From Psychrobium sp. MM17-31 (lineage in GTDB: Bacteria; Pseudomonadota; Gammaproteobacteria; Enterobacterales; Psychrobiaceae), in the NCBI RefSeq assembly GCF_022347785.1, contig NZ_JAKRGA010000003.1:124001-188000 (forward strand): a stretch of DNA of 64,000 nucleotides, written 5' to 3'. Positions within the stretch are counted from its first letter, which is position 1. Every line of letters begins with the position of its first letter. The notes below the pieces were generated by a model that searched no databases, had not been told where the DNA came from, and worked only from the letters and a program-made list of their open reading frames with translations. Both the position numbers and the translations under genes were made by a program. Below, piece after piece: positions 3,948 through 60,501 of this stretch.

Positions 3948-5459
3948 ATGTCAGTTATCAAAAAAGCAGACTTTATCGAGAGTATCGAAGACGCGCTGCA
4001 ATATATTTCTTACTACCACCCGAAAGACTTTATTGATGCGATGGAAAAAGCTTACAACACTGAACAAAGCAGTGCTGCTAAGGACGCCATGGCGCAAATC
4101 TTAATTAACTCTCGCATGTCAGCTGAAGGACACCGTCCACTGTGTCAAGACACTGGTATTGTTACCTGTTTCGTGAAAATCGGCATGAACGTGCGTTGGG
4201 ATTCTGATCTTACAGTGCAAGAAATGGTTGATGAAGGTGTCCGTCGCGCTTACAACAACCCTGACAATCCACTTCGCGCTTCTATTGTTGCCGATCCTGC
4301 TGGCAGCCGTAAGAATACGCGTGATAATACGCCAGCCGTTGTTCATATCGATATGGTTGCAGGTGATGAAGTTGAAGTTATGATTGCAGCCAAAGGCGGC
4401 GGTAGTGAAAACAAATCAAAAATGGTGATGTTAAACCCAAGTGATTCGATTGAAGATTGGGTTCTAAAAACAGTACCAACCATGGGTGCAGGTTGGTGTC
4501 CACCAGGTATGCTAGGCATAGGCATTGGCGGCACCGCTGAAAAAGCGGCTGTTATGGCAAAAGAAGCGCTAATGGAAAGCATCGATATTCACGAGGTTAT
4601 CGAAAAAGGCCCACAGTCTGGTGAAGAGCAATTGCGTTTAGACATCTTCAACGGTGTAAACAAATTAGGTATCGGCGCACAAGGCCTTGGCGGTGTGCAT
4701 ACTGTATTAGATATTAAAATCAAATCTGCTCCAACGCACGCCGCGTCTAAACCTGTAGTGATGATTCCAAACTGTGCGGCGACGCGCCATGTACATTTCC
4801 ATCTTAACGGCAGTGGTCCTGCTGATCTTCAGCCGCCAAAACTTGAAGACTGGCCAGAAATCACCTGGGAAGTCGGAGAAAATGTGCGCCGTGTAAACGT
4901 TGATAACTTAGCTAAAGAAGATATTGCTGAGTGGAAAACGGGTGAAACCGTCTTGTTAAGCGGTAAGATCTTAACGGGTCGTGATGCTGCCCATAAGAAG
5001 ATTCAAGATCTATTAGCTTCTGGTGAAGGTTTACCTGCAGGTGTTGATTTCAACGGTAAGTTTATCTATTACGTTGGCCCTGTTGATGCTGTTGGTGATG
5101 AGGTTGTTGGTCCTGCTGGCCCAACAACGTCAACCCGAATGGATAAGTTCACTAAGATGATGTTAGAAGAGACTGGCCTGCTTGGTACTATAGGTAAAGC
5201 AGAGCGTGGCCCAGCGACCGTTGAAGTTATCAAAGATAACAAGTCAGTTTATTTAATGGCTGTTGGTGGCGCTGCATACCTTGTATCTAAAGCCATCAAG
5301 AAAGCAAAAGTAGTTGCCTTCCCAGAACTTGGTATGGAAGCTATCTACGAATTTGAAGTAGAGGACATGCCTGTTACTGTTGCGGTAGATTCAACTGGTG
5401 ATAACGCCCATGATACGGGACCAGCTACTTGGAAAGTTAAATTGCAAGATCCCGCATAG
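3948..5459 (+). CDS. fumA: Class I fumarate hydratase ([4Fe-4S], fumA/fumB type)
   Basis: Interconverts fumarate and malate in the TCA cycle. The 503-residue single-chain protein has the N-terminal alpha-like part (RPLCQDTGIVTCFVKIG, GGGSENKS, GWCPPG.LGIGIGG) and the C-terminal beta-like part (GKILTGRDAAHKK, YYVGPVDAVGDEVVGPAGPTT) of oxygen-sensitive iron-sulfur fumarases. The conserved Cys in LCQDTG, WCPPG and NCAATRH are the expected cluster ligands. AGGGG sits 10 bp before the ATG. It stands alone with its own terminator at 5481-5508. Class I enzymes are oxygen-labile, fitting an organism that also has FNR-controlled high-affinity oxidases. Confidence 0.96.
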   Translation: MSVIKKADFIESIEDALQYISYYHPKDFIDAMEKAYNTEQSSAAKDAMAQILINSRMSAEGHRPLCQDTGIVTCFVKIGMNVRWDSDLTVQEMVDEGVRRAYNNPDNPLRASIVADPAGSRKNTRDNTPAVVHIDMVAGDEVEVMIAAKGGGSENKSKMVMLNPSDSIEDWVLKTVPTMGAGWCPPGMLGIGIGGTAEKAAVMAKEALMESIDIHEVIEKGPQSGEEQLRLDIFNGVNKLGIGAQGLGGVHTVLDIKIKSAPTHAASKPVVMIPNCAATRHVHFHLNGSGPADLQPPKLEDWPEITWEVGENVRRVNVDNLAKEDIAEWKTGETVLLSGKILTGRDAAHKKIQDLLASGEGLPAGVDFNGKFIYYVGPVDAVGDEVVGPAGPTTSTRMDKFTKMMLEETGLLGTIGKAERGPATVEVIKDNKSVYLMAVGGAAYLVSKAIKKAKVVAFPELGMEAIYEFEVEDMPVTVAVDSTGDNAHDTGPATWKVKLQDPA

Positions 5460-5480
5460 ATAATTAGTGATTATCGGTTA

Positions 5481-5508
5481 AAAGGCACTCAATAGAGTGC
5501 CTTTTTTG
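5481..5508 (+). terminator. Rho-independent terminator of fumarase gene
   Basis: Perfect stem AAAGGCACTC / GAGTGCCTTT with an AATA loop, followed by a T run; 22 bp after the fumarase stop codon. Confidence 0.92.
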
Positions 5509-13973: not shown

Positions 13974-14000
13974 AAAATGCCAGCACGAGGCTGGCATTTT
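13974..14000 (-). terminator. Rho-independent terminator between sppA and ansA
   Basis: Stem AAAATGCCAGC / GCTGGCATTTT with ACGAG loop; A run on the left gives a T run for the minus-strand sppA transcript. So ansA probably has its own promoter. Confidence 0.88.
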
Positions 14001-33662: not shown

Positions 33663-33690
33663 AAAAAAGGGCTCAAATGAGCCCTTTTTT
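33663..33690. terminator. Bidirectional terminator between gnd and cydB
   Basis: Stem GGGCTC / GAGCCC with AAAT loop, A6 on the left and T6 on the right. Confidence 0.92.
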
Positions 33691-37583: not shown

Positions 37584-37610
37584 AAAAGCCAAGCTGTTGC
37601 TTGGCTTTTT
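37584..37610 (+). terminator. Terminator of the YiiX-like gene
   Basis: Stem AAAAGCCAAGC / GCTTGGCTTTT with TGTT loop and T run; may also serve the convergent antiporter operon. Confidence 0.9.
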
Positions 37611-46358: not shown

Positions 46359-47624
46359 TCAAACTTTGCGATGCTGTCCTGAGCGCGCGCGATCTTTGAT
46401 ATTACTTTGAATATAATTTCGGTCAGTGGTTTCTGATGATGCATGGCCAAGTTCGTCGGCAAGATGTTTAAGTGGCCGGCTACCTGCATCTTCAGTAGCG
46501 CCCGTATGACGAAGCCAGTGTGTTGTCGCAGCCATTAAGTAATTTGCGTCATCTACAAAACCATCCTTTTTTAATGCTGCGATAGCTAGGTCAAAACTTT
46601 CTTCGACAATGCGTCGAATTTGACGTGCAGTAAGATTGCCCGCACCACGTAATTTATTGAGCATAGTCGTATCTTCATCAGGCGCGGGTAGGGAAGGCAG
46701 CCCACGTGACACACGATAACGTTTTAAATAGGGCATGTATGCCTCTGGCACAGTTACGTCTCTGACTTTATTACCTTTTCCGAATACTGTTAGATACCAA
46801 AATCCATCATCATCCACTGAAAAATCAGACATTTTTGGTGACCATTTCGCGTGTTCAGACAGCTCTGAAACGCGAAGATATAGGCTCTTTAATGTCGCAA
46901 TAATAAACAGATTGCGCTCAAATTTTGGATTTTCATCCGCTGATTCTTTGGTGATGCCTAACACATATTCCCATTGCAGTTGATTAAGCGTGTCAGGCGT
47001 TTTTCGTTGAACTTGCTTAATTAAGTATGGACAAGATTTTTTAACGACAGGCACGTAATTTTTATCGCAAACATCTTCCATTTGCGCGTGTTGATAAAGA
47101 ACGCTTAGCGCTGTGAAGGTCGCCACTAGCGATTCTTGCGAAGGACGGTAACTATCAACGGGTGCGGATTGTGACGGATTTCGTTTGGTAAGCGACTTTG
47201 CAAGTTTGGCCACAAACGGACGCCACTTAGGATTTGATTTTGCTAAACCATTTACGTCGATAAAGCGTTGTTGAACCGAAGTGCCAATCCAATCCTTATC
47301 AGGCTGATACACAAAATCGATATAGGCTTCGAGATCTTTGCGGGTTACATCGAAGATACTTTTAGCACGTGCTTGCCAACAATAAAGACACCAACGCTCA
47401 ATTTCGTTTCGAAAACGCATATAAGTGCCATTTGATTTGCGTCCCATTAAATAGAGAAATTCCATCACAAAACAAAGCTCGTTTTCGATATCTAAAATAG
47501 TTGGTGATAGTGATTCCAAGAAATGAGCGAGATCTGGATAGCTATTATGAAGGTATCGATCTCTAACTAATGCTTGTTGCTGTTTAAGGTTATCAAAAGT
47601 ATCGATAAGCGGCGTTGCTTGCAT
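46359..47624 (-). CDS. Tyrosine recombinase / site-specific integrase
   Basis: A 421-residue recombinase with the full catalytic set: Arg251 (LRVSELSEH), Lys283 (GKGNKVRDV), His369 and Arg372 (THWLRHTGAT), His394 (ELGHASSETT) and the Tyr404 nucleophile (TDRNYIQS). The N-terminal part (about residues 50-150) is the core-binding domain. ATG 47624 is used; the frame reaches a TTG at 47633. No ribosome site is obvious. No excisionase, phage or plasmid genes lie nearby. Its promoter (TTGGAC-18 bp-TATAAT) is embedded in a 34-bp palindrome at 47679-47712. Possibly the only intact gene of a mini-element. Confidence 0.92.
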   Translation of the reverse strand: MQATPLIDTFDNLKQQQALVRDRYLHNSYPDLAHFLESLSPTILDIENELCFVMEFLYLMGRKSNGTYMRFRNEIERWCLYCWQARAKSIFDVTRKDLEAYIDFVYQPDKDWIGTSVQQRFIDVNGLAKSNPKWRPFVAKLAKSLTKRNPSQSAPVDSYRPSQESLVATFTALSVLYQHAQMEDVCDKNYVPVVKKSCPYLIKQVQRKTPDTLNQLQWEYVLGITKESADENPKFERNLFIIATLKSLYLRVSELSEHAKWSPKMSDFSVDDDGFWYLTVFGKGNKVRDVTVPEAYMPYLKRYRVSRGLPSLPAPDEDTTMLNKLRGAGNLTARQIRRIVEESFDLAIAALKKDGFVDDANYLMAATTHWLRHTGATEDAGSRPLKHLADELGHASSETTDRNYIQSNIKDRARSGQHRKV

Positions 47625-47659
47625 AAATGACAAAATACGTGGAACTGGATTGATGAAGG

Positions 47660-47689
47660 ATTATATTTACCGAATTACCTAATGTCCAA
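47660..47689 (-). promoter_or_regulatory. Integrase promoter
   Basis: On the minus strand TTGGAC (complement of 47684-47689), an 18-bp spacer, TATAAT (complement of 47660-47665). The -35 lies inside one arm of the palindrome, so binding there would control the gene. Confidence 0.65.
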
Positions 47690-47712
47690 TACTTAAGAGT
47701 ATTGGACATTAG
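47679..47712. repeat. 34-bp palindrome, loxP-like 13-8-13 layout
   Basis: Perfect inverted repeat: CTAATGTCCAATA (47679-47691), 8-bp centre CTTAAGAG, TATTGGACATTAG (47700-47712). The arms extend to 15 bp if the centre is read as TAAG. Arm and spacer lengths match loxP-type recombination sites. 55 bp before the integrase ATG. The right arm shares 12 bp with 46129-46140. Confidence 0.8.
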
Positions 47713-48100
47713 AGAGGGTTAAGATAGTTGCGTAATTAAGGACTGCCTGTCGCACAAATCATATGTCTTATAATCTCACATTAATAGGATTTAACATAAT
47801 ATAGATTATGCGCACTATGATATTTTGAATTTCAAGGGGGCATTCTAGCTTCGTTTACCAAATGCGTTGCAGTTCTTTGTGCTACTCCGTGTTGAATACT
47901 GTCATTCGTTTAGTAAAAAATCTCTTACTAAGTCCGCATCATCACGCTTCCCTGTGTTTGTGGATATTAAATAAGCAACGCTACGTGAAATCTGATAAAA
48001 GTTACTAGACTTACCCTTGAATAATTTACGTAGCGTCGCCTTAATTTTGTACAGAATAAATTCTGAATTTAGAATTTACGTTCAGTTATTAATTGGTCAT
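47713..48100. other. 388-bp gap upstream of integrase
   Basis: No complete gene. AT-rich, with one 57-codon open stretch on the minus strand (47902-48075, listed separately). Otherwise nothing recognisable. Confidence 0.5.
47902..48075 (-). pseudogene. Startless 57-codon ORF remnant
   Basis: Minus-strand open frame bounded by TAA (48076-48078) and TGA (47902-47904). It reads as a plausible protein end, with KATLRKLFKGKSSNFYQISR and SVAYLISTNTGKRDDADLVR followed by DFLLNE, but has no ATG, GTG or TTG. I infer a gene fragment left by rearrangement next to the recombinase site. Not recognised; chance ORF is possible. Confidence 0.3.
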
Positions 48101-51516: not shown

Positions 51517-51545
51517 AAAAAGCCAATCAGTTGATTGGCTTTTTA
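51517..51545. terminator. Bidirectional terminator between yehS-like and Kef-type genes
   Basis: Stem AAAAAGCCAATC / GATTGGCTTTTT with AGTT loop. Confidence 0.92.
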
Positions 51546-60473: not shown

Positions 60474-60501
60474 AAAAGCCCCGTTCATTCGGGGCTTTTT
60501 A
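60474..60501 (+). terminator. Terminator of the DHDPS-family gene
   Basis: Stem AAAAGCCCCG / CGGGGCTTTT with TTCATT loop and T run. Confidence 0.93.

Follow-up and report, generated by a model that had tools for sequence, protein, structure and literature searches.

A palindromic site and its tyrosine recombinase beside dif in Psychrobium: a putative single-recombinase system of chromosome-dimer resolution

The 64,000-nucleotide stretch of the genome of Psychrobium sp. MM17-31 that was analysed here as a whole (the window) carries a gene for a tyrosine recombinase, and upstream of this gene lies a long perfect palindrome, 76 bp from dif, the site of the recombinases XerC and XerD. What would a third recombinase, with what looks like a site of its own, be doing at such a place? 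To our knowledge, XerCD/dif is treated as the near-universal route for separating chromosome dimers, and no description of a third recombinase linked to dif, or of such a system, was found in the open-access literature. The answer proposed here, which rests on comparative sequence analysis, is that the palindrome would be the crossover site of the adjacent recombinase, and that gene and site very probably form a self-contained single-recombinase system of chromosome-dimer resolution, which stands alongside XerCD/dif and has on several occasions taken its place. The coordinates of the features are collected in Table 1.

The palindrome, a perfect inverted repeat of 15-bp arms around a 4-bp centre (CTAATGTCCAATACT-TAAG-AGTATTGGACATTAG), begins 54 bp from the ATG of the recombinase gene and is the longest inverted repeat of the window; none with 15-bp arms occurred in 60 first-order Markov-resampled windows. 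In the whole 4.17-Mb genome, its 14-bp half-site has an exact match at this place only. Since the palindrome is single-copy, a repeat family or repetitive extragenic palindrome (REP) is ruled out, and a site-flanked invertible or mobile segment is ruled out as well, because no second site lies nearby. The initial annotation had already pointed to the 34-bp palindrome, and in this it was right; the 13-bp arms and 8-bp centre that it described are contained in the repeat, but the arms are actually perfect over 15 bp and the centre is of 4 bp.

Comparison with relatives shows which part of the palindrome is held constant. The same palindrome lies upstream of the recombinase gene in five other Psychrobium-type genomes (protein identity 71–83%), and these, together with the window and three Oceanospirillaceae/Osedax-symbiont genomes, provide nine loci, at all of which both 11-bp arms are 100% identical (ATGTCCAATAC-N6-GTATTGGACAT); the 60 bp on each side show 29–32% identity, about the level of unrelated sequence. 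By this conservation, the comparison delimits a putative 28-bp unit, ATGTCCAATAC-TTAAGA-GTATTGGACAT, whose geometry is 11-6-11 as in dif, and the loxP-like 13-8-13 geometry that had been proposed does not hold. When oriented by the gene, the centre at the nine loci is TTAAGA or its exact reverse complement TCTTAA only (four against five), with at least three flips on the tree, which points to inversions of the centre and not to substitutions. The bases flanking the 28-bp unit (47679–47681 and 47710–47712 in the window) are species-variable, yet self-complementary in most species, being CTA/TAG, CACT/AGTG, CCCTA/TAGGG and GACT/AGTC among the relatives.

A perfect inverted repeat with a 4-nucleotide loop, followed outwards by self-complementary bases in several species, might also be a transcription terminator or an RNA hairpin unrelated to the recombinase. 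However, it has no T-run, its arms are low in G+C, and it has no match in Rfam, by which an Rfam element is likewise ruled out; moreover, the arms are identical in nine genomes amid random flanks, and the occurrence of the same arms at gene-free places beside dif contradicts this explanation, which is scarcely credible.

Across the recombinase family, the arms fall into several classes. In Pseudoalteromonas they are almost unchanged (ATGTCCAATAC ... GTATCGGACTT), with the centres TAGACA, TAACCA and others; in a distant subfamily (28–34% identity), ATGCCGATAA-N6-TTATCGGCAT is found with at most two mismatches near the gene at 26 of the 30 loci listed, with many different 6-bp centres, and can sit 0.1–1 kb downstream of the gene; further clades have CCGTATAA-N6-TTATACGG, and Colwelliaceae and SAR92-type relatives have GTCCNNTAA-N6-TTANNGGAC. 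The initial annotation had named beforehand what would speak against it, namely arms that do not covary with the recombinase across relatives. When 59 labelled rows are placed on a protein tree, there are 6 changes of arm class, compared with at least 18 in 100 label shuffles, so that the covariation is present. That is to say, the arms track the recombinase clade, as expected of a recombinase-binding site, and the 6-bp centre is variable, as expected of a crossover region. In the P. rubra group, copies of the half-site that lie downstream of the gene were also considered as sites and rejected, for they look like conserved coding sequence.

The recombinase itself is neither XerC nor XerD by equivalog score: against the NCBIfam equivalog models, it reaches 55.9 bits for XerC (cut-off 335) and 35.9 bits for XerD (cut-off 329.6). 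Its gene, which is single-copy in the window genome, starts at a conserved ATG at 47624, and an upstream TTG at 47633 is also possible (gene 46359–47633, minus strand). The catalytic residues R254, K286/K289, H372, R375, H397 and Y407 are invariant or nearly so in the family, in agreement with the annotation of the gene as intact. A phmmer search of the recombinase against PDB gave no match; the family profile reached XerD, XerA, XerH and IntI4 (XerH E = 5e-6), and Cre was absent among its sequence matches. In the predicted structure (mean predicted local distance difference test score 81, last 47 residues of low confidence), the best structural matches of the fold are Cre and XerH, both of which are single recombinases, and since the template-modelling scores are low, this likeness is informative for the fold class only.

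The −35 hexamer TTGGAC of the recombinase promoter lies inside one arm, as had been annotated, and a TATAAT-like −10 (at least five of six matches) stands 17–19 bp from it at seven of the nine loci. Because the site covers the −35, the bound recombinase would probably repress its own transcription, and autoregulation is likely on this arrangement. Could the palindrome then be an operator only, bound by the recombinase or by another dimeric regulator at the recombinase promoter, with no strand exchange? The −35 in the arm with a good −10 following it in most Psychrobium-type loci would suit this, as would the fact that in many clades the palindrome immediately precedes the gene. However, the site is also found without the gene, beside dif, and that of the distant subfamily can be downstream of the gene, as mentioned above; the centre is always of 6 bp with a variable sequence, and it is the proximity to dif that is conserved and the proximity to the gene that is not. 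Since gene-free copies exist, autorepression is not the reason for the site, and an operator without strand exchange is very unlikely. The proposal of the initial annotation, a crossover site of the recombinase that perhaps also serves as an operator, is supported by the invariant arms amid random-like flanks, by the clade-tracking arms and by the gene-free sites.

What had been missed is dif, and with it the setting at the chromosome terminus. On the 884-kb contig, the GC skew reverses its sign within the interval of 140–200 kb, with a cumulative maximum at 144 kb, the polarity of the FtsK-orienting motif KOPS (GGGNAGGG) switches at about 171 kb, and the site lies at 171.7 kb; the switch of both GC skew and KOPS polarity at the site and dif marks the chromosome terminus. 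XerD (391 bits) and an XerC-like protein (302 bits) are encoded on other contigs of the same genome. In the congeneric genomes G001, G004 and G008 (genomes are denoted by G numbers), dif also lies within about 200 bp of the recombinase gene.

In a profile search, the recombinase family was found in 100 of the 395 genomes of the order, nearly always in one copy, and it is near-universal in some genera (20 of 21 genomes in g35, 12 of 12 in g25). Among the 150 dif matches listed, gene and dif on the same contig are at most 15 kb apart in 48 of 51 pairs and at most 1.5 kb apart in 30, and two of the three exceptions come from one genome, G023. Genomes without a site beside the recombinase gene carry it elsewhere: in Pseudoalteromonas G402, G403, G404, G302, G366 and G244, a gene-free site lies 60–100 bp from dif, the exception in this genus being G405 with 8.8 kb, and in G403 and G404 there are two sites on different contigs, each adjoining its own dif. 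Pseudoalteromonas has two circular replicons with dif1 and dif2 (PMC7858055). When one genome has sites on two contigs, their centres differ in all five cases (G302, G366, G403, G404 and G405), and in many Pseudoalteromonas chromids a dif2-like sequence precedes the recombinase gene, at a distance of about 0.8 or 0.1 kb. For XerCD/dif as well, 6-bp centres that differ between replicons are known, from dif1 and dif2 of V. cholerae.

The tight spacing to dif in many genomes would also suit an architectural accessory, in which the recombinase bound 60–100 bp from dif shapes the XerCD synapse without cutting DNA, in the way that ArgR and PepA shape the XerCD synapse at cer. However, the catalytic residues are invariant, the centre is of exactly 6 bp, and the gene–site pair survives in genomes without XerC, XerD and dif, which makes such a role highly improbable. 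Just as improbable is a mobile-element integrase with its attachment site, in which case gene and palindrome would be an IMEX-like module inserted near dif, either a resident integrative element or the remnant of one: relatives do occur on plasmids and chromids, the tree suggests a transfer to Oceanospirillaceae/Osedax symbionts, and prophages are found near dif2 in Pseudoalteromonas (PMC7858055), but the gene is single-copy and near-universal in the genera mentioned above, no second site or element boundary surrounds it in the window genome, and the site persists alone adjoining dif. A phage integrase or that of an integrative and conjugative element, with two attachment-site copies bounding the element, was rejected, the genome having one site. 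In the chromids of Pseudoalteromonas (IMG/VR loci L167–L174), genes of prophage type (replication protein, DUF3693) stop close to the dif2-like sequence by the recombinase, and at L089 the prophage-like genes include a second site copy with a different centre (4716–4743). Direct repeats of the site flanking these prophages were considered and rejected, as only L089 had two sites, and their centres are different.

XerC/XerD hits are absent in 26 of the 395 genomes, which comprise 10 tiny symbiont genomes and 16 large ones; among the large ones, 15 are also without dif and 10 carry the recombinase family (one-sided Fisher P = 0.0009 for the dif-less set, kinship among genomes being ignored). G003 and G009 have the recombinase and the palindrome, with no dif at up to 3 mismatches and no XerC/XerD hit at E ≤ 1e-50 among all candidates scored; G096, G137, G149, G161, G172, G194 and G225 have the recombinase without XerC/XerD and without dif (at up to 2 or 3 mismatches), and so has G357 in the order-wide survey, without XerC, XerD and dif. 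In genus g8, just 2 of 18 species possess the recombinase, and no other species there lacks XerCD, as these two do (P = 0.0065); in genus g73, the recombinase occurs without XerCD in G172, and XerCD without the recombinase in G183. The closed genome G137 consists of a single-contig chromosome of 4.39 Mb, in which the gene sits at the terminus, 12 kb from the cumulative GC-skew maximum of an examined stretch of 400 kb, and the site lies upstream of it. In drafts, the absence of dif or XerCD may be an assembly gap; however, the completeness rating of G003 and of G137 is 100%, and dif, XerC and XerD are missing together. The pair fits the description of a stand-in for XerCD/dif in G003, G009, G357 and the seven genomes named with them, and not in the window genome. 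It would be redundant with XerCD/dif in the latter, and it is likely the sole system in relatives without XerC, XerD and dif.

In the proposed mechanism, four copies of the recombinase would bring two 11-6-11 sites, one on each sister chromosome, into a synapse, and strand exchange across the 6-bp centre would convert the circular dimer into two monomers. FtsK, translocating toward the point of KOPS convergence, would bring the terminus sites together at the septum, and a place beside dif would be accounted for, because only sites at the terminus meet there at the proper time. Where a replicon has a single site, that site would ordinarily recombine only with its other copy, in a dimer or on the sister chromosome. 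We infer the binding and strand exchange by the recombinase from conservation and covariation, the involvement of FtsK from the position of the site, and dimer resolution as the simplest function for a single site at the terminus, with replicon-differing centres, in a pair that survives without XerCD/dif.

Several points weigh against this proposal. Most recombinase-bearing genomes, the window's included, still have XerC, XerD and dif, and the proposal gives no reason for the persistence of two systems; crossovers at both sites would undo each other. In 11 drafts the gene and dif fall on separate contigs, and at a few loci, e.g., G005, G006, Hahella and Algicola, there is no recognised site near the gene. 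Some relatives are plasmid-borne, and their role there would be plasmid dimer resolution. The cross-genome comparisons ignore phylogeny, and related genomes are not independent. Finally, six large XerCD-less genomes are without the recombinase family, and large genomes that lack XerCD, dif and this family suggest that another route of dimer resolution may exist. As for individual genomes, the Psychrobium genomes G005 (C76) and G006 (C14) carry the other recombinase subfamily and have dif on a separate contig, and the large genomes G078, G087, G234, G321 and G393 (the last 82% complete) have no XerC/XerD hits, dif or recombinase family.

Compared with known systems, the features of the single-recombinase Xer/dif class are present, i.e., intact catalytic residues, recombinase-specific arms with a centre of about 6 bp, and a site at the terminus. 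Cre/loxP, the system of plasmid P1, also has one recombinase and a palindromic site for replicon dimer resolution, and Cre is among the best fold matches; it differs in its 8-bp centre and 13-bp arms, compared with 6 and 11 bp here. In E. coli, Cre/loxP placed at the terminus is able to substitute for dif (cited in PMC2731167). XerS/difSL of streptococci and lactococci and XerH/difH of epsilonproteobacteria, in which gene and site are usually a linked module at the terminus (PMC2731167), share with the present pair the one tyrosine recombinase, the site at the replication terminus and the gene–site module. They differ in that the module here adjoins an intact-looking XerCD/dif in most hosts, and XerH is only distantly related in sequence to the recombinase family (profile E = 5e-6). 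XerL/dif, described in Legionellales only, with orthologues searched within Legionellales only (PMC9765430), would resemble the pair as a single-recombinase stand-in for XerCD/dif in gammaproteobacteria with chromosome and plasmid copies of the site. XerCD/dif itself has a 28-bp 11-6-11 terminus site with a variable 6-bp centre too, whereas here there is one recombinase, and the arms are symmetric and of unrelated sequence.

On the wider scale, the pair probably represents an unrecognised family that lies beside dif in many aquatic gammaproteobacteria, with replicon-specific sites and several complete displacements of XerCD/dif. A 2009 survey that found no dif/Xer in the large genomes of Colwellia psychrerythraea and Saccharophagus degradans raised the question whether a substitute exists (PMC2731167). 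Members of the recombinase family occur in the Colwelliaceae genera Thalassotalea and Thalassomonas and on Cellvibrionaceae plasmids, and, if true, the proposal would answer how dimers are resolved in Colwellia psychrerythraea and perhaps in Saccharophagus degradans. A portable module of recombinase and site that stands beside dif, at first shares the cell with XerCD and later displaces it would show, in a series of natural intermediates, how an important cell-cycle system is replaced. A further gain would be a set of Cre-like recombinases with short defined sites, of several arm specificities and many centres.

Table 1. Features of the palindrome–dif locus, in window positions
Feature	Position	Strand	Basis or remark
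Perfect 15-4-15 palindrome	47679..47712	no strand	inverted-repeat search and Markov resampling
28-bp putative recombination site	47682..47709	no strand	arm conservation in 9 genomes; layout common to the family
Site arm ATGTCCAATAC	47682..47692		
6-bp centre TTAAGA	47693..47698		
Site arm GTATTGGACAT	47699..47709		
Tyrosine recombinase gene	46359..47624	−	421 amino acids from ATG; Pfam Phage_integrase; far below XerC/XerD cut-offs
Recombinase promoter −35 TTGGAC	47684..47689	−	inside the gene-proximal arm; TTGGAC in 9/9 relatives
Recombinase promoter −10 TATAAT	47660..47665	−	perfect, 18 bp from the −35
Canonical XerCD dif AGTGCGCATAATCTATATTATGTTAAAT	47789..47816	−	only dif found in this genome
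Conserved motif CAGATTTCACGTAG	47981..47994	−	far side of dif; similar at other Psychrobium loci

The motif like CAGATTTCACGTAG was seen in G001, G003 and G009, among which G003 and G009 are the two without dif. Elsewhere in the window, the other strong inverted repeats, at 33663–33690, 51517–51544, 13974–14000, 37584–37609, 5480–5505 and 60474–60499, resemble ordinary intrinsic terminators with A/T tails.
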